Of a stretch of 38,431 nt of DNA, positions 5,815 through 14,637 are shown piece after piece. The translations under genes and the position numbers were made by a program. The number at the start of each line of letters is the position of its first letter. The first letter of the stretch is position 1. The DNA is from Synechococcus sp. 8F6 (GTDB lineage Bacteria; Cyanobacteriota; Cyanobacteriia; PCC-6307; Cyanobiaceae). The DNA is taken from NCBI RefSeq assembly GCF_002252665.1, contig NZ_NQKZ01000019.1, positions 1 through 38,431 on the forward strand, read 5' to 3'. Under the pieces are notes generated by a model, which worked only from the letters and a program-made list of their open reading frames with translations, had not been told where the DNA came from and searched no databases.

Positions 5815-6471
5815 TCAGGATCTTTGGGATTCCGCCAGAAGGGTCCCAGCCAAGCAGGCACCCTCCAGGTCGGCTCCCTGCAGCTGGGTATCGCGCAGGT
5901 CGCAACCACTTAGATCCGCCTGGCGCAGATTGCAGCTACGAAGATTGGCTCCATAGATGCAGCTGCCCTGCAAGTTGGCGCCCCGCAGATTGGCGCCCTC
6001 TAACAGGGCAAAACTGAGGTCAGCCTCCGCGAAATCAGCATGGCCAAGATCCGTGAGTTGGTCGAGTCCAGAGCGGAAATCGGCTTCAACCAACCGCGCT
6101 TGTTTCCAGCTGCTGCCAGCAGCCACAACGCCGCGTAGACAGCAGCGGTGCATCACGGCCCGATCAAAGTTCGATTCCTGAAGGCGGCAGCCAGAAAGGT
6201 CGGATTCGTGCCAGAAGGATCCCTGGGCTTGCATTGATGAGAGGTCTGCTCCCCACAGCAACGCCTGCTGAAAGCAGCAGTGTTGCACCTGCGCCCCCCG
6301 CAGGCGGGCATGGCCGAAACGTGCTTCCTTAAAACAACTGCCCTCCAGGTTGCAATCAGAGAGGTCGAGGTCGAGACCGTCGATACCACCGAGCCGCAGA
6401 CCCTGAAAATTGCGCTCGCCAGCCTCCAAGGCCGCACGGAGATATTGGCGACTGGTCTGCTCTTCTGCCAT
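5815..6471 (-). CDS. Pentapeptide-repeat protein
   Basis: 218 residues made almost wholly of A(D/N)LxX-type five-residue repeats (for example LEGANLRGANLQGSCIYGAN and QADLSGCDLRDTQLQGADLE), which fold as a right-handed square beta-helix. No signal peptide. It is unusually rich in Cys for the family. The start (ATG at 6469-6471) overlaps the stop of the ArsR-type regulator by one base, so the two are translationally coupled. Such proteins are abundant in cyanobacteria and mostly of unknown role. The coupling to the regulator suggests it belongs to the same response. Confidence 0.85.
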   Translation of the reverse strand: MAEEQTSRQYLRAALEAGERNFQGLRLGGIDGLDLDLSDCNLEGSCFKEARFGHARLRGAQVQHCCFQQALLWGADLSSMQAQGSFWHESDLSGCRLQESNFDRAVMHRCCLRGVVAAGSSWKQARLVEADFRSGLDQLTDLGHADFAEADLSFALLEGANLRGANLQGSCIYGANLRSCNLRQADLSGCDLRDTQLQGADLEGACLAGTLLAESQRS

Positions 6472-6776
6472 CAGAGAAAGGCGGCAAGGGCATCTAGTTG
6501 GTGGCGGCGAAAAGCAAGCAATAGCTTTTCAGCCTGGGCAATCAGTTTGAAGACCCCCTTGTCAGCCACCTCGTAATAAACGAGGGCTCCCTCTGGTCGG
6601 CGCTGCACCACCCCGGCAATGGTGAGCAGCTTGAGATGTTTCGACACCAGCGCCTGGCTTAGGCCGGTGCTGTCCACAACGGCAGTCACGTTGAGGGGGC
6701 CTGCCCGCAGGGCGTGGAGCACGGCAAGCCGATTCGGCTCTGAAAACACCTTGAAGTAGTCGGCCAGGGCTTCCAT
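6471..6776 (-). CDS. ArsR-type winged-helix regulator
   Basis: 101 residues from the ATG at 6776, preceded by GAGG about 7 bases away; a TTG start at 6812 would add 12 residues. The ArsR winged helix is clear: ALADYFKVFSEPNRLAVLHAL, then the recognition region STGLSQALVSKHLKLLTIAGVV and the wing RRPEGALVYYEV. There are no Cys residues and none of the His/Asp pairs used by metal-sensing ArsR members, so the signal is not a metal held at a known site. It is divergent from the hemerythrin-acsF-desF-ado run and is the obvious candidate to repress it, by binding the 6777-6891 gap. The known cyanobacterial activator of this regulon, ChlR, is MarR-type with an Fe-S cluster; this protein is different. 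Confidence 0.85.
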   Translation of the reverse strand: MEALADYFKVFSEPNRLAVLHALRAGPLNVTAVVDSTGLSQALVSKHLKLLTIAGVVQRRPEGALVYYEVADKGVFKLIAQAEKLLLAFRRHQLDALAAFL

Positions 6777-6863
6777 CGGGTCCTCGGGGAGGGAGGTGGC
6801 AAAAAAGACCAATCAAATCTTAACTCATCCTTGTGCTAGCGGATCACCACAAACTCTAGCTAC

Positions 6864-6891
6864 TGCGTAAATTGCGTAACATGATGCCGTT
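6864..6891. promoter_or_regulatory. Candidate operator before the hemerythrin-acsF run
   Basis: In the gap between the divergent regulator and hemerythrin genes, TGCGTAA is repeated at 6864-6870 and 6873-6879. TAAC at 6877-6880 is mirrored by GTTA at 6889-6892, eight bases on. Winged-helix regulators bind such inverted or repeated sites. No strong -35/-10 pair stands out. This is a suggestion from position and symmetry. Confidence 0.35.
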
Positions 6892-7395
6892 ATGACGTTA
6901 AGCTGTTGTCCTGTTGTTGCTGCGTCCATGTCGCCTGAGTCCCTCGCGCCTCCCCATCCCTTGCCCCCCGCCGCCGCACCGGCTATGTGGCCGCTGCAGT
7001 GGCCCCAGCAGGAGGGACTGTTGGAGCGCCAGCACGACCGTCTCGAAGCACTGCTTGACGATCTGGTCGATCGCCACTGCCTAGCCGACAAGGAGCGCAG
7101 TGCTCTGGAGCTGCTCGCTGATCGCCGCGACTGCCTCCTGCTGGTGAGGGGGCTGCGCCTGCACTTGCGGCTAGAGGAGCGCTGGCTCGCTCAGCGCGGC
7201 TGCCTTTGCCCTGGCCACCGGGCTGCCCACTGCGAGGCCGTCGCTGCCGCTGCTGCCGGCTGGGAGGTTGCCGAAACCCTGCGAGCCGCGCGGCTGCCCT
7301 GGCTGATGGAACTCCAGCAGTGGTTTCACGGCCATCGCCACGGGCCCGATGCCCTGGCCTACGCCCGCGCTGCCGCCCTCACCCCCTCCCTCTGA
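6892..7395 (+). CDS. Hemerythrin-like O2/diiron-binding protein
   Basis: 167 residues with a four-helix-bundle pattern. All seven canonical hemerythrin ligands can be placed: His48 (ERQHDRLEALLDDLV), His91 and Glu95 (HLRLE), His109 and His113 (HRAAH), His148 and Asp153 (HRHGPD). The spacings HxxxE, HxxxH and HxxxxD are exactly those of the family. The first 30 residues are Pro/Ala-rich and may be a spurious extension; the ATG at 6928 is an alternative start. Hemerythrins bind O2 reversibly, or sense or buffer it. The stop overlaps the acsF-type start (TGATG at 7393-7397), so it is co-translated with an O2-using diiron enzyme. This suggests O2 sensing, delivery or protection, which is inference. 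Confidence 0.8.
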   Translation: MTLSCCPVVAASMSPESLAPPHPLPPAAAPAMWPLQWPQQEGLLERQHDRLEALLDDLVDRHCLADKERSALELLADRRDCLLLVRGLRLHLRLEERWLAQRGCLCPGHRAAHCEAVAAAAAGWEVAETLRAARLPWLMELQQWFHGHRHGPDALAYARAAALTPSL

Positions 7396-8420
7396 TGACC
7401 ACCTCTGCTCCCCACCTGCGCGAAAACCTGCTCACCCCGCGCTTTTACACCACCGAAATCGACAAGGCCGCCAAGACCGATCTCGTGGGCCAGCGCGCTG
7501 CCTTCGAGGCGATGCTCAACGAGATGGAGGCCGATTACAACCGCGATCACTTCGATCGCAAGGCCCCCCTCGATCGGCTGCGGGCCCTGAATCCAGAGGA
7601 GAAAGTAGCCTACGAGAGCTATTTAGTGCGCAGCTGCGTGTCGGAATTCTCCGGCTTTCTGCTGTTCAAAGAGCTCTCGCGCCAGCTTCAAAAGGCAGGC
7701 CGCCCAGAGTTGAGCCGCCTCTTCAATTTGATGGCCCGTGATGAGGCTCGCCATGCCGGCTTTCTCAACCGGGCCCTGGTGGCCGAGGGTATTGAGATCG
7801 ATTTGCCGGCTTTGAGCGTCAAGCGGCCGATCACCTGGTTTCCGCTGAGTTGGGTGCTCTATTCGGTGTTTCTCTCCGAAAAGATCGGCTACTGGCGCTA
7901 CATCTTGATCGATCGGCACCTCAAAGCCCACCCAGAGAACGACTTCGCCCCCCTGTTTGATTTCTTTGAGCCCTGGTGTCAGGACGAGAACCGCCACGGC
8001 GACATCTTCAATATGCTTCTGCGCTGCTGGCCGGGGTTGCGGCAGGGACTGCGCGGCCGGTTACTGAGTCGCATCTTTCTGTGGAGTGTGTTTCTAACCC
8101 ACAGCCTGACGGTGTGTGAGCGGGGCAACTTTTACAAGCTGCTGGGCATGGATCCCAGTGGCTTCGATGAAGAGGTGATGCGCAACACCAACCGCACAGC
8201 CCGGCGTGCTTTTCCGGTGGTGTTCGATCTGGATGGCCGTGCCTATTTCGAGCTGCGCGATCAGCTGGTGGAGGTGTTCCGGGCTATCAAATCCAGCGCG
8301 GAGGAGCCCGCTAGCCCGGCACGGTTGCTGAAGTCTCTCGGCCTGAAGGCCCGCTTTGCAGGCTTGCTCTTGCGCCAGCTCAGCCAGCCGATGGTGCCAT
8401 CCTCTGGGGCAATCGCGTGA
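7395..8420 (+). CDS. acsF: Mg-protoporphyrin IX monomethyl ester (oxidative) cyclase
   Basis: 341 residues, the usual AcsF/ChlA length. It forms the isocyclic E ring of chlorophyll using O2 at a diiron site, at the thylakoid/plasma membrane. Diiron motifs are DEARH (in LFNLMARDEARHAGFLNRAL) and DENRH (in FFEPWCQDENRHGDIFN), with the earlier helix SYLVRSCVSEFSGFLLFKEL. The start is the ATG at 7395 overlapping the hemerythrin stop; the longer upstream frame is hemerythrin sequence in another phase. By context with desF, ho and hemN this is the low-oxygen isozyme (ChlA-II/AcsF2) rather than the aerobic one; that assignment is from gene order. Confidence 0.93.
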   Translation: MTTSAPHLRENLLTPRFYTTEIDKAAKTDLVGQRAAFEAMLNEMEADYNRDHFDRKAPLDRLRALNPEEKVAYESYLVRSCVSEFSGFLLFKELSRQLQKAGRPELSRLFNLMARDEARHAGFLNRALVAEGIEIDLPALSVKRPITWFPLSWVLYSVFLSEKIGYWRYILIDRHLKAHPENDFAPLFDFFEPWCQDENRHGDIFNMLLRCWPGLRQGLRGRLLSRIFLWSVFLTHSLTVCERGNFYKLLGMDPSGFDEEVMRNTNRTARRAFPVVFDLDGRAYFELRDQLVEVFRAIKSSAEEPASPARLLKSLGLKARFAGLLLRQLSQPMVPSSGAIA

Positions 8421-9301
8421 GGGCAGCGACTTCCCTGCCCGCCCTTAGGCAGGGGGTGAAGGTGGTGCCTGGACGCTTGCCGTTCAGCACCGGAACGGTG
8501 TTGTTCATGGTGGCGATCCATGCGCTGGCGTTGGTTGCTCTGTTGCCACGCTTCTGGAGCCCAACAGCACTGCTGGTCCTATTGGGGCTGTACTGGCTTA
8601 CCGCCTGTGTGGGGGTGACCCTGGGTTACCACCGTCTGTTGGCCCACAGAGCTTTTCAAGTGCCCAGGTGGCTTGAGCTGGTTATCGCTACCTGCGGTGC
8701 CCTCAGCTGCCAGCACGGTCCGATCGACTGGGTGGGCTTGCATCGCCATCACCACCTGCACTCCGACGATCCAGCTGACCACCACAACAGTCATCTCGGC
8801 TTCTGGTGGAGCCACTTCGCCTGGATGCTGCACACCGTGCCAGCCAAGCAGTTCGTGCGCCAACTCACCCCCGACCTGCAACAGATTCCCTACCACCGCT
8901 GGTTAAACCGCAACTTTCTGCTGCTGCAGTTGCCCCTGGCGGCCGCTCTCTATGGGCTGGGTCAGGCGACCGGAGCCGGTGGTTGGGCCCTTGTGCTCTG
9001 GGGCATTCCCCTCCGCATGGTGCTTGTCTATCACGCAACTTGGCTGGTCAATTCAGCCACCCATCGGTGGGGCTACGTGAGCCACAGGAGCGGTGATAGC
9101 TCCCGCAATAACTGGTGGGTGGCCCTGCTCACCTTCGGTGAGGGCTGGCATAACAACCATCACGCCTACCCCAGTAGTGCCCGCATGGGCTTTCGCTGGT
9201 GGGAGCTCGATCTCACCTGGTGGCACATCCAGATGCTGGGCCGACTTGGCCTGGCCCGTCGAATTCGCCTGGCCGCTCCTCTTCACGCCTCCTCCTCATG
9301 A
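8417..9301 (+). CDS. desF: Acyl-lipid/acyl-CoA-type fatty acid desaturase (DesF-like)
   Basis: 294-residue membrane desaturase with the three His boxes of the delta-9 type: HRLLAH (in GVTLGYHRLLAHRAF), HRHHH (in DWVGLHRHHHLHSDD) and HNNHH (in EGWHNNHHAYP). Hydrophobic pairs lie around residues 28-65 and 165-210. It introduces a double bond into a fatty acyl chain using O2 and electrons from ferredoxin. The GTG start overlaps the acsF stop (GTGA at 8417-8420). In Synechococcus sp. PCC 7002 a desaturase called desF lies with the low-oxygen tetrapyrrole genes; the symbol here rests on that context, and the double-bond position is not known. Confidence 0.85.
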   Translation: MRAATSLPALRQGVKVVPGRLPFSTGTVLFMVAIHALALVALLPRFWSPTALLVLLGLYWLTACVGVTLGYHRLLAHRAFQVPRWLELVIATCGALSCQHGPIDWVGLHRHHHLHSDDPADHHNSHLGFWWSHFAWMLHTVPAKQFVRQLTPDLQQIPYHRWLNRNFLLLQLPLAAALYGLGQATGAGGWALVLWGIPLRMVLVYHATWLVNSATHRWGYVSHRSGDSSRNNWWVALLTFGEGWHNNHHAYPSSARMGFRWWELDLTWWHIQMLGRLGLARRIRLAAPLHASSS

Positions 9302-10002
9302 CTTCCATGCCCTTTGCAGCCCTGCCCGACATCACCAACCCCGCCTACCGCGATGCTTACAGCCGCATCAACGGCATGGTGGTGGTGGGTGAAAATCTTG
9401 CCGGTCGTCACTTCCGACTGCTTGCCCGCGCCATTCCAAATGATCAGCAGGAACTGGAGCGACTTGCCGCCATGGAAGGGCGCCACGCCAGCGACTTCAT
9501 GGGCTGCGGTCGCAACCTTGGAATCAAGCCCGATCTAGGCCTAGCCCGTCTCCTATTCGCCCCACTGCACGAGCTGTTCCTGAGGTGCAACCAGCAGGGC
9601 GACCTACCGGGCTGCCTGGTGATTCAGGGCTTGATTGTGGAGTGTTTTGCCCTTTCGGCTTACCACGCCTACCTGCCGGTGGCCGACGCCTACGCCCAGC
9701 CAATCACAGCCGCTGTGATCAGCGATGAAGGAGAGCATCTGGGCTACGCGGAGCGCTGGTTGCAAGGCCATTTTGGTGCAGCGCAGGCATCCGCCGGCAC
9801 GGTCAGCCGCAAAGCCCTGCCGATCACTCTGGCCATCCTGCAGACCCTGGCTAAGGACCTGAAGGCGATCGGCATGGACCCGCACGAGGTGCTCGCAAAT
9901 TTCAGCGAGCTATTTCTTCAAGCCCTGAAAGCCAGCGGCTTTGATCAAACAGCAGCCAGACGCATCGTTACCGGAGGCCTGGCTGCTGCTGCAACTAGAT
10001 GA
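9298..10002 (+). CDS. ado: Aldehyde deformylating oxygenase (alkane synthase)
   Basis: 234 residues, matching cyanobacterial ADO in length and sequence (YRDAYSRIN near the start, CLVIQGLIVECFALSAYHAY in the core). The six diiron ligands align by number with the Synechococcus elongatus enzyme: Glu32, Glu60, His63, Glu115, Glu144, His147. The enzyme turns fatty aldehydes into alkanes and formate using O2 and reduced ferredoxin. The ATG overlaps the desF stop (ATGA at 9298-9301). Its usual partner, acyl-ACP reductase (aar), is normally adjacent but is not in this window, and placement in a low-oxygen tetrapyrrole cluster is atypical. It may be a second, specialised copy. Confidence 0.88.
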   Translation: MTSMPFAALPDITNPAYRDAYSRINGMVVVGENLAGRHFRLLARAIPNDQQELERLAAMEGRHASDFMGCGRNLGIKPDLGLARLLFAPLHELFLRCNQQGDLPGCLVIQGLIVECFALSAYHAYLPVADAYAQPITAAVISDEGEHLGYAERWLQGHFGAAQASAGTVSRKALPITLAILQTLAKDLKAIGMDPHEVLANFSELFLQALKASGFDQTAARRIVTGGLAAAATR

Positions 10003-10399
10003 TCCAGGCCAGGTCAGCGAGGGGCGCGGGGGAGGGTAGATCAATCGCTTCGCTCATCAGCCAGGCACTGCTGAGCAGCATGGGCCGTAAATCGCCACCC
10101 AACCGCAGCTGCAGCCAGACAGCGACGCTGGGATCCAGGATGACAATCCCCTCTGCTGGGACTGGTTGATCGATCCCGCTCCGCCGGCCAACCACACCCA
10201 GCATTGAGCTGAGATTCGGCGGGCAGTACCAGAGGCCCGCCTCGCCGATCCCCTGATGACGGCGTCGCTCGAGCATCAGTTCGCGCAGCTGGCCATCCCC
10301 GCTGAGCGCTGGGAACGGAGCCACTAGCAACTGCAGCTGGAGGAGATCCGTCAGCGGCGGGCCCGGCTGGGGCTCAAAGGGTATGGCCATGGGGAGCAT
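9995..10399 (-). CDS. Hypothetical protein between ado and ho
   Basis: 134 residues, ATG start, Pro/Leu-rich with no signal peptide or clear transmembrane helix. Segments such as LWYCPPNLSSMLGVVGRRSG and VPAEGIVILDPSVAVWLQLRLGG suggest a small globular alpha/beta protein. Its 3' end overlaps the end of ado by 8 bases (convergent), and its start faces the heme oxygenase across about 90 bases. The family is not recognised. It breaks the otherwise single-strand run of the cluster, so heme oxygenase needs its own promoter. Confidence 0.55.
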   Translation of the reverse strand: MLPMAIPFEPQPGPPLTDLLQLQLLVAPFPALSGDGQLRELMLERRRHQGIGEAGLWYCPPNLSSMLGVVGRRSGIDQPVPAEGIVILDPSVAVWLQLRLGGDLRPMLLSSAWLMSEAIDLPSPAPLADLAWII

Positions 10400-10487
10400 T
10401 GCAACGTTTTGGAAATCACGGAACAGTGTAACAACGGTAGTGGCATATCATTGATTGAGTTTACTCCGCCCGTCCTGGGCAGGTCCG

Positions 10488-11150
10488 ATGCTCTCCTCTC
10501 CTTCCCTGTCCACCACCTCGCAGCAGAGTCAAACCCTTGGTCCACGGTTGCGCAAACTGCATACCCATATCGGCAAGGCCCACCATCAGGCGGAGGGGAT
10601 GGAGTTTTCCAGGGCTCTGCTGGAAGGCAGAGCCACGCCGCTGCAGCTGGCAGGCCTGCTGAGGGCGCTGCTGCCGGCCTACACCCTGCTTGAGCAGGAG
10701 GCCCCCGATTTGGCCACCGCCCTTGGCGCAACGAACATGCCCTGGTCAGATCTGGCCCGCAGGCACGCCTTAGAGCACGACCTGAAGCAGCTCGCCGCAT
10801 TGCCAGCAACACCGGCATCAGCTGCAGCAGCCAGCTGGCTGGAGCAGATCAAGTTGCTGGCTCGCCAGGCACCCCACCGGCTGATGGCGCACGTTTATGT
10901 GCGCTACGGCGGGGATCTCTCCGGCGGACAGCAACTGGGGGGCCAGGCCAACGCCATCCTTAGCCGCCATGGCTTATCAGCACTGAAGTTTTGGTCATTT
11001 GAGCAAGAGATCCCTGCCCTAAAAAAAGCCCTGCATGACGGTTTTGAGCAGATGGATCTATCTGAAGCAGAGGAAGAAGAGTTGCTGGATGAAGCCGTAG
11101 CGGCCTTCAAGCTCACCCAGAAACTGCTAGCCGAGCTCGCCGAGATTTAA
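10488..11150 (+). CDS. ho2: Heme oxygenase (biliverdin-forming)
   Basis: 220 residues from the ATG at 10488; a TTG at 10455 is also in frame but less likely. The proximal heme ligand is His32 (HxxAE pattern within KAHHQAEGMEF), and the distal-helix signature AHVYVRYGGDLSGGQQL is near intact, with the glycines that let O2 bind. It opens heme to biliverdin IX-alpha using O2 and reduced ferredoxin, the first step to phycobilins. It is 41 bases upstream of hemN on the same strand, so probably one transcript. Its pairing with hemN and acsF marks it as the low-oxygen isozyme type (ho2), inferred from context. Confidence 0.93.
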   Translation: MLSSPSLSTTSQQSQTLGPRLRKLHTHIGKAHHQAEGMEFSRALLEGRATPLQLAGLLRALLPAYTLLEQEAPDLATALGATNMPWSDLARRHALEHDLKQLAALPATPASAAAASWLEQIKLLARQAPHRLMAHVYVRYGGDLSGGQQLGGQANAILSRHGLSALKFWSFEQEIPALKKALHDGFEQMDLSEAEEEELLDEAVAAFKLTQKLLAELAEI

Positions 11151-11191
11151 GGCAGCAACTCATCCCAACACCCACCCAACCCCTCACGCCC

Positions 11192-12550
11192 ATGCCCGCC
11201 ATCGCCCCTGCGCTCAGCCCGATCGAGCTGCTGCACAAGTACAACAAGCCCGTTCCCCGATATACCAGCTATCCCACCGCAGCAGCGTTTGAGATCGGAA
11301 TTAGAGCAGGGGAGCTCAGCCGGCAACTTGCCCAACCAACCAGCGCCCCACTTTCGCTCTATGTGCATGTGCCCTTCTGCCGCCATGCCTGCTGGTATTG
11401 CGGCTGCAACCGGGTGACCACCCAACTCGGCTCCAAGGTGGTGGAGCCATACCTGGCCTCATTGGGGATCGAGCTTGAGCTCCTCAGGGCCGTCATGCCA
11501 CAACGACGTCGGGTCGCCCAACTGCACTGGGGCGGTGGTACCCCCAACTACCTCAATCAGCAAGAATCCGCCCGGCTCTGGGGATTACTGGAGCAGCACT
11601 TCGAGCTCGATCCCAACCTCGATGCATCCATTGAAGTCAATCCAGAATTCCTCAGTCGTGATGACGTGCTGCATCTGCGGGGCCTGGGATTCAATCGCAT
11701 CAGCTTTGGCATTCAGGACGCCAATCCAGAAGTGCAGAAGGCTGTGAATCGAATCGTGCCAGCGGAGCAGTTGCTCCGGGTGATGGGCTGGCTACGGGAA
11801 GCGGATTTCAACAGCGTGAATGTGGATCTGATCTGCGGCCTGCCACTCCAGACACCGGAGCGCTTCCGCCAGACCCTGGCACTGGTGCTGCAGTTGCGCC
11901 CTGATCGGATCTCCCTGTTCTCCTTTGCCTACCTGCCGGAGCAGTTGCCACTGCAACGCAAAATTGCCGCCAGCGATCTACCCAACCAGCGCGACCGCTT
12001 GATGATGCTCGAAGACGCCAAGCAGCTGCTCTGCAGTTCTGGCTACGAGGCTGTTGGCATGGATCACTACGCCCTGAGCGGCGACAGCCTGGCAGAGGCC
12101 GCCCGAGCTGGGCTGCTGCATCGCAACTTTCAGGGGTACACAACCGGTGGGGAGCTGGAGCTACTGGGGGTGGGGCCCACCGCCATCAGCCAATTCCCGC
12201 ACCTATTCACCCAGAACGAACGGGACCTCAAGGCCTACACCCGGGCCCTCGAAGAGGGTCGCCTGCCCGTGGAGCGCGGTCTAGTGGTGAAGGATGCGGA
12301 GACCCTGGAGCGGCGCGAATTGATCCGTCAGGTGATGTGCGAATTCGCGGCAACCATCGACCTTGATCGCTTCAGTAGAGAGTGGCAAGAATTGCAGGAG
12401 CTGGCCAAAGATGGGTTAGTGAGACTGGAAACCAGCGGTCGGCTTGGCTTGCTCACAGTCACCACCTCGGGCCGCTGGCTGATCCGCAGCATCGCCGCGG
12501 TCTTTGACCCGCAACAGCAACAGCGCGCTTCTGGATCCCGCCTGGTTTAA
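11192..12550 (+). CDS. hemN: Oxygen-independent coproporphyrinogen III dehydrogenase
   Basis: 452 residues, full HemN length. The radical-SAM cluster motif is Cys63-x3-Cys67-x2-Cys70 (PFCRHACWYCGCN), with Tyr57 just before it as in true HemN. GGGTPNYL, SFGIQDANPEVQKAVNR and the C-terminal HemN domain (with NFQGYTTGGELELLGVG) are all present. This distinguishes it from HemW. It decarboxylates two propionates of coproporphyrinogen III to give protoporphyrinogen IX without O2, replacing HemF when oxygen is low. It ends with a 4-base overlap into the convergent polyferredoxin gene (12547-12550). Confidence 0.95.
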   Translation: MPAIAPALSPIELLHKYNKPVPRYTSYPTAAAFEIGIRAGELSRQLAQPTSAPLSLYVHVPFCRHACWYCGCNRVTTQLGSKVVEPYLASLGIELELLRAVMPQRRRVAQLHWGGGTPNYLNQQESARLWGLLEQHFELDPNLDASIEVNPEFLSRDDVLHLRGLGFNRISFGIQDANPEVQKAVNRIVPAEQLLRVMGWLREADFNSVNVDLICGLPLQTPERFRQTLALVLQLRPDRISLFSFAYLPEQLPLQRKIAASDLPNQRDRLMMLEDAKQLLCSSGYEAVGMDHYALSGDSLAEAARAGLLHRNFQGYTTGGELELLGVGPTAISQFPHLFTQNERDLKAYTRALEEGRLPVERGLVVKDAETLERRELIRQVMCEFAATIDLDRFSREWQELQELAKDGLVRLETSGRLGLLTVTTSGRWLIRSIAAVFDPQQQQRASGSRLV

Positions 12551-14637
12551 GCCGTCACCAACCAGCGTCCAGCCGCCGCCAGCGCCAGGACCAGAGCCAA
12601 TCCGCCCCAACGGCTCCAGCCGGCTGGCTGAAAACGGGGGATCAGCATGGCTGTGCCCCCCACTCCAACCAGCACGGCCGCGCTCTGGCAAAAAGCGATC
12701 ACGTGAGTGTCGGCCCTCCAGTGGGGCAAATCCGGCCAGCCGAAGCTCACCGGCAACAACAGTCCCGCCTCCTGGAGCCCCAGCGGCAGGTGCCGGGCCA
12801 CCAGCAAAGCCCAGAGCAATGGCAGCAGCAGGTAAAGGGTGCTGGTGGAGAGACCCAGCAGGCGGCGCAATGCCAGCCAGCCAAGGGACGGCAACGCCAG
12901 CGCCAGCAGGCCGATAGCAAGGCGCGCCAGCAATGGACCGGCCTGCAAACTCTCGGGCGCCAGCGGCAACCAGCCCAACAGCCGCTGCCAATGATGCAGG
13001 GTGACGCCGCCCGCCAGCACCAGGATCAGGCCCGCTTCTCCAGCGGGCAGATCCATCTCCCGCTGGAGATCGGCAGCCGGTGGCCTTAGGCGCAGCTGCA
13101 CCGAACGATGGGGGCAGGCAGCGGCGCAGGTGAAGCAGAGGACGCAGTTGCGGTTGTCGGTGAGGTGGGCTGGATGGGTGCCAAGTGGACAGCCGGCGGT
13201 AGCCAGTCCCTCCCCCACCGCAGGCCCTCCTTTGAAGCAGCCGTAGCTGCTGCAGCTGCCACTGCAGGTGCCCGATTGGGCCCGCAATTCAGTCATGGCG
13301 AGCTTGGCGAAAAGGCCATTCATGCCACCGACTGGGCAGAGAAAACGGCACCAGAAACGCTTCTCGTAGAGCAGGGAGCCCAGCACCGCACCGGCGGTGA
13401 TGCCCAGCAGCAGGCAACTGCTGAGCCAGGCGGTGTTCTCCAGATTTGCCAGCTCCTCCCAGAGAAGGATCCCAGCGAAGCCGGCAGCCAGCACGGGCGC
13501 GCCCCACTGGTCCAATTCACCCCGCGGCCAGGGCCTGGGCTGCCAACCCAACCGCCGGGCCAGCCCCTGGATGATCTCTCCCCAAACCATGAAGGGACAC
13601 ACCGCACACCAGAGTCGACCCACCAGGGGGTACGACAACAGAATCAGGGGCCACCACCAAGCCCAGAACAGGTTGAGAGCGCCGTTGTGGTCCCGAGACT
13701 GAGGCCCCAGCCACAGCCATAGGTTCACGGCCACAAACAACCAGCTCACCACCCCAAATTTGAGGACAGCCCAAAGCGAGGGCTGACGCAACAGCTGACG
13801 CAGGGGAGGGCGCCAACGCCAGAGATCGAATCTCAGCCGGTGCGGACGATTGGCTGTCCAGAACACATCCTCAGGCAGTAGCACCCCCTGGGGACTCTTT
13901 TTGTCACTGCCCTGGAGCCGCACCTGTTCCATGGCCCGAGCGATTAACCCATCCAGCTCGCGCAAGTTGTTGGGAAAGTCATAGTTCTGGAGTCGCCTCA
14001 CCACCGCATCACTGACCTGCGGCAGGACTTCCCAACCGGAGCTACGGGCCTGCTGGCGCAGCCCATAGCGCAACCATTCGCCCAGGTCCTGGCGCCGCAC
14101 CCGCAACGGCGGCACCCGAATCAGATCGCAGACCTGATCAAAAGCAGGCAGGGCGGCCTCGGCGGTGAAAAACACCCTGCCGCTGAACTGGCGCGGTCTG
14201 CTGCCCTCCCCCGGACTGCACCAATGCCCTGTGCGAGCCAGCTCCAGCAAGCTGAGCTGCAGTGACGACGGCACCTGGTCGAGCTTGTCGATCAGCAGCG
14301 CACCATTCCCGAGGCACTCCAGCAAAGACCCGTCGCCATCACTGCCTGACTGGCCGAACAGGTTGGCGCCATCAGCCCGCAGCGTGGACCCATCCAGGCG
14401 CACCAGCCACTGCCGGCGCGAGGCAGAGCCGAAGTGAATCAGGGCCGCGAGGTTGTCCTTCTCCAGCCCCGGCTCGCCGCTGATCAAAACGGCTCGCCCA
14501 GCGGGGTCAGCAGCAGCCTGGCGAATCTGCTCGCGCAGGCGCTGGGCATAGCGACTGCTGCCGACCACACCACGACGCACCCGACCCAGCAGGTACGGGG
14601 CCAGGGTCAACAGGTGATCGGATGAATCCTGTAGCAC
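12547..14637 (-). CDS. NtrC-type AAA+ domain fused to membrane NosR/NapH-like polyferredoxin
   Basis: 696 residues in two parts. Residues about 20-255 follow the sigma-54-activator AAA+ domain but are degenerate. The Walker A region reads GEPGLEKD (53-61), the Walker B region LLIDKLDQ (114-121), and there is no GAFTGA loop. The PPLRVRRQDL and NNLRELDGLI segments remain. There is no Fis-type DNA-binding helix. Residues about 290-696 form a membrane polyferredoxin: transmembrane helices with CxxCP (344-348) and CxxxCP (430-435), then a soluble Cys cluster (458, 462, 467, 483) and a ferredoxin motif (498, 501, 504, 508), then about four more helices. The start is GTG. Cyanobacteria lack sigma-54, so a role in transcription by that route is not expected. 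Redox sensing or electron transfer is plausible; the function is unknown. Confidence 0.85.
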   Translation of the reverse strand: MLQDSSDHLLTLAPYLLGRVRRGVVGSSRYAQRLREQIRQAAADPAGRAVLISGEPGLEKDNLAALIHFGSASRRQWLVRLDGSTLRADGANLFGQSGSDGDGSLLECLGNGALLIDKLDQVPSSLQLSLLELARTGHWCSPGEGSRPRQFSGRVFFTAEAALPAFDQVCDLIRVPPLRVRRQDLGEWLRYGLRQQARSSGWEVLPQVSDAVVRRLQNYDFPNNLRELDGLIARAMEQVRLQGSDKKSPQGVLLPEDVFWTANRPHRLRFDLWRWRPPLRQLLRQPSLWAVLKFGVVSWLFVAVNLWLWLGPQSRDHNGALNLFWAWWWPLILLSYPLVGRLWCAVCPFMVWGEIIQGLARRLGWQPRPWPRGELDQWGAPVLAAGFAGILLWEELANLENTAWLSSCLLLGITAGAVLGSLLYEKRFWCRFLCPVGGMNGLFAKLAMTELRAQSGTCSGSCSSYGCFKGGPAVGEGLATAGCPLGTHPAHLTDNRNCVLCFTCAAACPHRSVQLRLRPPAADLQREMDLPAGEAGLILVLAGGVTLHHWQRLLGWLPLAPESLQAGPLLARLAIGLLALALPSLGWLALRRLLGLSTSTLYLLLPLLWALLVARHLPLGLQEAGLLLPVSFGWPDLPHWRADTHVIAFCQSAAVLVGVGGTAMLIPRFQPAGWSRWGGLALVLALAAAGRWLVTA

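Follow-up and report, generated by a model that had tools for sequence, protein, structure and literature searches.

The genome of Synechococcus sp. 8F6 raises the question of whether a group of tetrapyrrole, lipid and alkane genes, headed by a hemerythrin-like gene and a divergent regulator of the ArsR family, is a set for low oxygen (O2), and of what holds that set together. The window, i.e. the whole stretch of DNA analysed, comprises 38,431 nucleotides (contig NZ_NQKZ01000019.1 of assembly GCF_002252665.1, positions 1 to 38,431 of the forward strand); the locus lies at 5815-14637. The reading preferred here, with a probability of roughly 0.68, is a two-unit module of low-O2 isozymes under a dedicated ArsR regulator, in which the hemerythrin would buffer or supply O2. 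Gene content, intact metal ligands, conserved gene order, a palindrome in two gaps, and the paralogy of the second cyclase (AcsF2), the second aldehyde-deformylating oxygenase (ADO2) and the heme oxygenase (HO) were observed. Control of the set by low O2 would follow because of the analogy with the ChlR set of Synechococcus sp. PCC 7002. The original prediction drew the link between the genes from overlaps and order; the link now also rests on the palindrome common to both units. The observation is real, broader than first stated and better tied together. Gene families were assigned with Pfam and NCBIfam profiles, and sites were scored with a position weight matrix (PWM). The features of the locus are:

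5815-6471, reverse strand: pentapeptide-repeat gene (HetL-like), overlapping arsR by 1 base (Pfam PF00805, 1.1e-38)
6471-6776, reverse strand: arsR, ArsR-family regulator of 101 residues without Cys (HTH_5, 4.1e-9; NF033788, 76.9 bits against a cut-off of 55)
6877-6894, no strand assigned: operator-like palindrome TAACATGATGCCGTTATG, consensus ATMACG-N4-CGTKAT (15/18 letters; PWM score 26.9)
6928-7395 (longest open reading frame from 6892), forward strand: single-domain hemerythrin-like gene (ligands and predicted fold)
7395-8420, forward strand: acsF2 (TIGR02029, 348.4 bits, above the equivalog cut-off of 192.5)
8417-9301, forward strand: acyl-lipid desaturase gene, DesC/DesF-like (PF00487, 7.6e-22)
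9298-10002, forward strand: ado2, paralogue of the aldehyde-deformylating oxygenase gene (PF11266, 2.9e-59)
9995-10390, reverse strand: open reading frame (ORF) between ado2 and ho, divergent from ho (no Pfam or NCBIfam match)
10430-10447, no strand assigned: weak palindrome-like second site in the gap between the reverse ORF and ho (PWM score 0.0)
10488-11150, forward strand: ho, heme oxygenase of a cluster-specific lineage (PF01126, 3.6e-29)
11192-12550, forward strand: hemN, O2-independent coproporphyrinogen III oxidase (TIGR00538, 464 bits against a cut-off of 325)
12547-14637, reverse strand, convergent with hemN: NapH-like membrane iron-sulfur (FeS) protein with an N-terminal sigma54-activator-like AAA+ domain (Pfam/NCBIfam)

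The coordinates bear out the overlaps of 1-4 bases that had been ascribed to four genes in the order hemerythrin, acsF, desF, ado. The hemerythrin stop codon (7393-7395) and the ATG of acsF2 (7395) share one base, acsF2 (end 8420) and the desaturase gene (GTG start 8417) overlap by 4 bases, and the desaturase gene (end 9301) and ado2 (ATG 9298) again overlap by 4 bases. The reverse-strand arsR is divergent from this forward series. That ho and hemN follow ado2 was correct as to order and wrong as to contiguity: the reverse ORF at 9995-10390 lies between ado2 and ho, so that the forward genes fall into two units or more, hemerythrin-acsF2-desaturase-ado2 and ho-hemN. For the hemerythrin gene the start at 6928 appears more likely than that at 6892, because the conserved palindrome at 6877-6894 covers the ATG at 6892. 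The arsR start at 6776 (101 residues) is the start of most ArsR homologues. The pentapeptide-repeat gene is a member of the set.

Matches in the family (Cyanobiaceae) and in named genomes rule out a cluster private to one genome. The hemerythrin gene was found in 41 of 400 family genomes (28 of 251 of good quality) and in 10 of 59 genera, with E up to 1e-5; among the 41, the match in G221 covers only 31 residues, that in G082 is in two pieces and that in G273 holds one stop. The ArsR gene occurs in 102 of the 400 genomes and in 22 of the 59 genera (E up to 1e-20); it had been described as divergent, free of Cys and private, and only the last of these does not hold. A hemerythrin gene common across cyanobacteria was rejected: three of 386 genomes of a phylum sample matched, all of this family and one over 29 positions. 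A total of 80 regions was examined, covering part of the 102 ArsR genomes, and loci cut by a contig end before a given gene were left out of its denominator unless the gene was seen. At the 40 hemerythrin loci (window included) the hemerythrin gene stands directly upstream of acsF2 in 37, the ArsR gene is divergent and adjoining in 34 of 39 assessable, and a pentapeptide gene lies near arsR in 34 of 38 assessable. The further genes are ADO (29/32), the reverse ORF (27/30), HO (29/30) and HemN (29/29); the desaturase is present in only 15 of 36. The hemerythrin-acsF2 neighbourhood occurs in ten genera; the outcome named in the original prediction as refuting, a neighbourhood not conserved outside this genome, thus did not arise. 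At 27 AcsF loci without hemerythrin the ArsR gene adjoins in 26 of 26 assessable and the pentapeptide gene is present in 26 of 26; ADO was seen in 13 of 25, HO in 18 of 18, HemN in 22 of 22 and the reverse ORF in 12 of 12 assessable. Fourteen more regions carry the ArsR gene without hemerythrin and without AcsF.

A scan of named genomes gave 34 loci, including Cyanobium sp. T1B-Tous (95%), Synechococcus sp. CS-1331, Synechococcus sp. SynAce01, Vulcanococcus limneticus LL, Synechococcus lacustris and two metagenome-assembled genomes (MAGs) from Lake Pavin. The module belongs to freshwater and brackish picocyanobacteria. A record titled as a Bifidobacterium breve MAG (L229) has a contig that matches the cyanobacterial hemerythrin, and its label or binning looks wrong. 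Three AcsF-only loci (L092, L095, L107) look decayed, and at L046 hemerythrin is followed by a piece of hemN, with acsF not seen, i.e. a decaying cluster that kept hemerythrin. Two tandem ArsR copies (98% and about 80%) precede hemerythrin at L055 960-1805 (G214). In G467, a genome from outside the family, an ArsR relative (51%) and a pentapeptide gene lie close to acsFII (L244 7386-10527).

The ArsR protein has the winged-helix helix-turn-helix of its family in both Pfam and NCBIfam. Cys, and with it a Cys-based metal site, is absent from the window protein and 33 homologues; this count does not include rows L041 and L048, whose ArsR is another one, about 40% identical. Each protein has 1 to 3 His, and the recognition helix SQALVSKHLKLL is the same in all 33 homologues. 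At 51 of 66 arsR loci the best site agrees with TATCACGATGTCGTTATG in at least 13 of 18 letters. Because the consensus comes from inspection of the arsR gaps by eye and the PWM from these 51 sites, scores within arsR gaps are partly circular; the ho promoters were not part of the training. The window site matches 15 of 18 letters, and none of 100 shuffles was as good. For the upstream scans, from which genes with fewer than 150 bases upstream were left out, a score of at least 10 was found before ho at 27 of 47 loci (0/940 shuffles), before ado at none of 42, before hemN at none of 51, before the pentapeptide gene at none of 66 and before the desaturase gene at one of 20. Such sites precede acsF at 18 of 65 loci, as expected where no hemerythrin gene intervenes. 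This distribution fits two control points with one putative factor, acsF2, the desaturase gene and ado2 being read from the first; the second site, between ho and the divergent reverse ORF, may serve both. In 22 genomes a looser palindrome gave 11-26 places each among those listed, against 1-13 for a reversed control. A genome-wide regulon drawn from it was dropped; of the few places inspected, one, within ADO1 of G051, was coding sequence.

For all O2-dependent enzymes of the set the same genome holds paralogues elsewhere: AcsF1, ADO1, two HOs and two desaturases. AcsF2 is a second cyclase, 43% identical to AcsF1 at C22:51760. In a quick tree without bootstrap, AcsF2 proteins form one clade, with outgroup AcsFII and all AcsFI rows on the other side; the sole cyclase of G003 and that of G071 fall inside the AcsF2 clade. 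Three genomes (L259, L260, G029:C36:84627-85595) have a single AcsF, on the AcsF2 side and 65-66% identical to that of the window. The Prochlorococcus listed with chlAII only in Table 1 of PMC4500134 offer a comparison, and the low-O2 form may have become the sole cyclase in such single-AcsF genomes. Of 22 cluster genomes searched, 20 hold the cluster HO, which in the 19 besides this one is 53-72% identical to the window HO, against 26-34% to all other HOs of those genomes and of other cyanobacteria. In G214 and G150 the contig ends before the HO position, and no cluster HO was found elsewhere in them. The desaturase is 66% and 58% identical to its two own-genome paralogues and 48-53% identical to outgroup DesF; in the DesF tree, likewise quick and without bootstrap, L100 and the two own desaturases are long-branched and their placement is unsure.

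ADO2 is a deep paralogous clade distinct from ADO1. A tree of 75 rows splits 45 ADO2 from 30 ADO1 with support of 100/100, and the two groups share 35-41% identity within the family. The six di-iron ligands (E32, E60, H63, E115, E144, H147) are invariant in 24 of 24 aligned ADO2 proteins including that of the window, with identity to the window protein down to 51%; in the wider set of 45 rows the one departure is L070, N-terminally disturbed, where position 32 is a gap and position 60 is R. Seven changes are nearly fixed in ADO2 (E30V, N38H, Y39F, F82L, F86L, K135P, Y206F). Cyanobacterial ADO of NCBIfam TIGR04059 shares with ADO2 the six ligands and the fold, and the nearest solved relative of ADO2, 5ux2, has ADO activity in its title, whereas ADO2 stays below the TIGR04059 cut-off (202.4 against 222.65 bits) and differs in clade, identity and the seven changes. 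The ADO2 model has a predicted local distance difference test score (pLDDT) of 95.6, matches the ADO fold with Z of 32-37 and fits 5ux2 best (Z 37.0, 0.8 Å, 61% identity). The title of that entry, 'Protein 19 with aldehyde deformylating oxidase activity from Synechococcus', is all that speaks here to alkane formation from aldehyde by ADO2.

A panel of 61 genomes was chosen by presence of hemerythrin and of ArsR: 27 genomes carry hemerythrin, 22 carry ArsR alone and 12 lack ArsR, 8 of these 12 from one genus. ADO2 (52-100% identity) occurs in 31 of them, each also with canonical ADO1; the match is partial in G048 and has an in-frame stop in the matched stretch in G209 and G324. In this panel ADO2 is restricted to genomes where AcsF2 is matched at 73% or more (31/42 against 0/19), where the 42 include G048 (stop) and G279 (cut by a contig end) and G023 (fragments) is counted as without. 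An occurrence elsewhere was rejected, as the best match outside the window among 146 genomes of the class was 44%, the level of ADO1. ADO2 is commoner at loci with hemerythrin (29/32 against 13/25, Fisher p 0.0019, relatedness ignored). No acyl-ACP reductase gene was seen among the genes at 5815-14637.

In the hemerythrin-like protein the seven iron ligands (H48, H91, E95, H109, H113, H148, D153 in P0001 numbering) are invariant in 23 aligned proteins including that of the window, with identity to the latter down to 40%. They follow the seven-ligand motif of O2-binding hemerythrin (H, H...E, H...H, H....D). The claim that all seven hemerythrin and all six ADO ligands are present thus proved correct, and the added genes, said to look functional, do look intact. 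The Pfam PF01814 gathering score is not reached (14 against 25.3 bits) and NCBIfam gave no match; the name hemerythrin-like accordingly refers to ligands and predicted fold. The AlphaFold2 (AF2) model (pLDDT 88) is a helical bundle. In structure comparison (VIA) the top 8 rows are all hemerythrins (Z 14.1-15.0, root mean square deviation 1.9-2.4, 114-119 residues aligned) and the next unrelated bundle has Z 12.6, so the model resembles the four-helix bundle of solved hemerythrins. Foldseek alone gave nothing significant for the model (best E 0.29), and a profile search gave a weak match to DcrH hemerythrin (E 0.018). The four-helix bundle and the seven ligands are shared with bacteriohemerythrin (4xpx, from Methylococcus, and the DcrH-Hr domain, 2awc); the window protein differs in its identity of 18-19% to these, its score below the Pfam cut-off and its tie to genes for pigment, lipid and alkane synthesis. 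Several cyanobacteria are included in a published survey of hemerythrins that bind O2, and the words Synechococcus and Prochlorococcus are absent from its main text (PMC4919030). The position beside di-iron oxygenases may be compared with the delivery of O2 to methane monooxygenase, as proposed in PMC12607906. Npun_R0971 of Nostoc punctiforme, a hemerythrin-domain gene, is listed with a value of 5.8 in a transcriptome table on alkane overproduction (PMC7660261). The passages of that paper at hand state no link to the present gene set; the entry is a possible second hint of a link between alkanes and hemerythrin.

In PCC 7002, acsFII, ho2, hemN and desF are low-O2 forms under ChlR, an FeS activator that works at low O2; a desF mutant is conditionally lethal under micro-oxic conditions, and some strains hold low-O2 genes without chlR (PMC4500134). 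The window shares with chlR-acsFII-ho2-hemN-desF of PCC 7002 the joint presence of cyclase, HO, HemN and desaturase, with chlAII-ho2-hemN of Synechocystis 6803 (PMC4500134) that of cyclase, HO and HemN, and with ChlR systems a small divergent winged-helix regulator and second copies of aerobic enzymes. It differs in a Cys-less ArsR in place of the FeS-type ChlR, an HO of another lineage, a desaturase nearer to its own paralogues, AcsF2 of a separate clade, the addition of hemerythrin, ADO2, the pentapeptide protein and the reverse ORF, and the arrangement in two units with a common palindrome. In the place of a divergent HxlR/MarR-type protein with Cys-X4-6-Cys-Pro stands ArsR. The window HO is only 25-30% identical to the HO of outgroup acsFII clusters and is not the ho2 of that lineage. 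The original prediction of the known micro-oxic set was thus right as to gene content (PMC4500134) and not as to a ho and desF of PCC 7002 type, which the HO and desaturase identities do not support. Judged by sequence, the set would match that of PCC 7002 in function without being copied from it. Outgroup locus L252 has, divergent from acsF, an HxlR protein of 4Cys type that is taken for ChlR because of its Cys-X6-Cys-Pro. This protein finds no match in the present genome (G000), which is weak evidence, since as a query it misses 8 of 19 outgroup genomes too; it has matches of up to 48%, weaker relatives, in 10 of 22 cluster genomes. A literature search of titles, abstract starts and passages, with subscription journals mostly outside it, returned no description of the set with hemerythrin or ADO.

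In the proposed mechanism the set would provide a further form of several enzymes that consume O2 (cyclase, desaturase, alkane synthase and heme oxygenase), joined by the O2-independent HemN and an O2-binding hemerythrin. In each of the two divergent gaps, between arsR and the hemerythrin gene and between the reverse ORF and ho, a dimer of the ArsR-family protein would bind ATMACG-N4-CGTKAT; most likely it is a repressor in air that leaves the site when O2 declines. The hemerythrin probably serves the di-iron oxygenases next to it as a buffer or source of O2. Several observations weigh against this mechanism. The window ho site scores 0.0 (shuffled median -9.4) and is weak in this genome, 20 of 47 ho loci score below 10, and at 15 of 66 arsR loci the site falls short of 13 letters. 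ArsR is without a recognised sensor site. The desaturase (15/36 loci) and the hemerythrin (41 genomes of 400, against 102 with ArsR) are optional. At L036, L041, L045, L047 and L048 the motif is kept without a conserved-type ArsR beside hemerythrin; the fragmentary G103, G128 and G363 keep it (L047, L045, L044), yet no ArsR was found in them; and in G037, G077 and G083 the ArsR gene is elsewhere, with no motif near it at L101 and L111, two of these loci. Where the motif is kept without an adjoining or any found ArsR, ArsR would act in trans, or the site would be bound by some other factor. A rival proposal is that a regulator other than the neighbouring ArsR binds the palindrome, leaving ArsR to control nothing beyond itself and the pentapeptide gene; the same five loci and three genomes speak for it. 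We consider it improbable, since ArsR is present in 37 of 41 hemerythrin genomes, the remaining four being fragmentary, the motif lies in the arsR divergent gap at most arsR loci, and its two-fold symmetry would suit an ArsR dimer with an unchanged recognition helix.

The function of the set is likewise open to other accounts. An answer to iron or nitrosative stress rather than to O2, with hemerythrin as an iron or nitric oxide buffer, would agree with six forward genes that all encode di-iron, heme or FeS proteins (families by profile), and the co-occurring NapH-like FeS protein points to redox or nitrogen chemistry; HemN bypasses an O2-dependent step, however, the others are extra copies of O2-using enzymes as in the PCC 7002 low-O2 set, and more iron proteins are not favoured under iron starvation, all of which makes such an answer decidedly improbable. 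A hemerythrin that senses or scavenges O2, to protect HemN or to signal, rather than supplying it, deserves more weight while still being on the unlikely side: bacteriohemerythrin neighbourhoods are reported for both sensing and delivery (PMC12607906), and the set persists without hemerythrin in many genomes (the 27 AcsF-only loci), but the protein is a single domain with no signalling part, it stands directly upstream of acsF2 in 37 of 40 loci, and ADO2 is more frequent beside it, with relatedness ignored. That the order is merely inherited, without common control or function, is very hard to credit. The loci come from one family and are not independent, but the order is kept though identity drops to 40% in hemerythrin, 51% in ADO2 and about 35-40% in the reverse ORF, genes overlap, and the palindrome stands at two gaps and at neither ado nor hemN.

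Beyond the low-O2 module under ArsR, a bolder version may be offered, tentatively and as rather unlikely in full. Hemerythrin would feed scarce O2 to private di-iron oxygenases (cyclase, desaturase and ADO2) and so sustain chlorophyll, lipid and alkane synthesis near anoxia; ADO2 would be an alkane synthase of high O2 affinity; and the Cys-less ArsR would sense by a new route, perhaps with a pentapeptide partner. By analogy, the second ADO would extend the idea of low-O2 isozymes to alkane synthesis, which would join the pathways kept by cyanobacteria in low-O2 form. Picocyanobacteria persist in anoxic layers of stratified waters such as Ace Lake (PMC9716671) and the Black Sea (PMC6776005). 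As to how O2-dependent pathways are kept up in such layers, the module offers a short list that can be tested: a single regulator and palindrome, two gaps, and a hemerythrin next to three di-iron oxygenases. The comparison with PCC 7002 suggests that low-O2 tetrapyrrole sets came together on more than one occasion, under different regulators.

The pentapeptide protein scores 148 bits with penta_HetL, below the cut-off of 260, and could be a partner of ArsR. Identity to the reverse ORF of the window drops to about 35-40% among loci with the order kept. The FeS-AAA gene at 12547-14637 was rejected as a fixed neighbour, as it usually lies elsewhere though co-occurring with ArsR. Cyanobacteria are not known to have sigma54, and the AAA+ part of its product may therefore have a role other than sigma54 activation. 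Relatives of this gene are present in 47 of 49 panel genomes with ArsR and in 2 of 12 without it, mostly far from the cluster.

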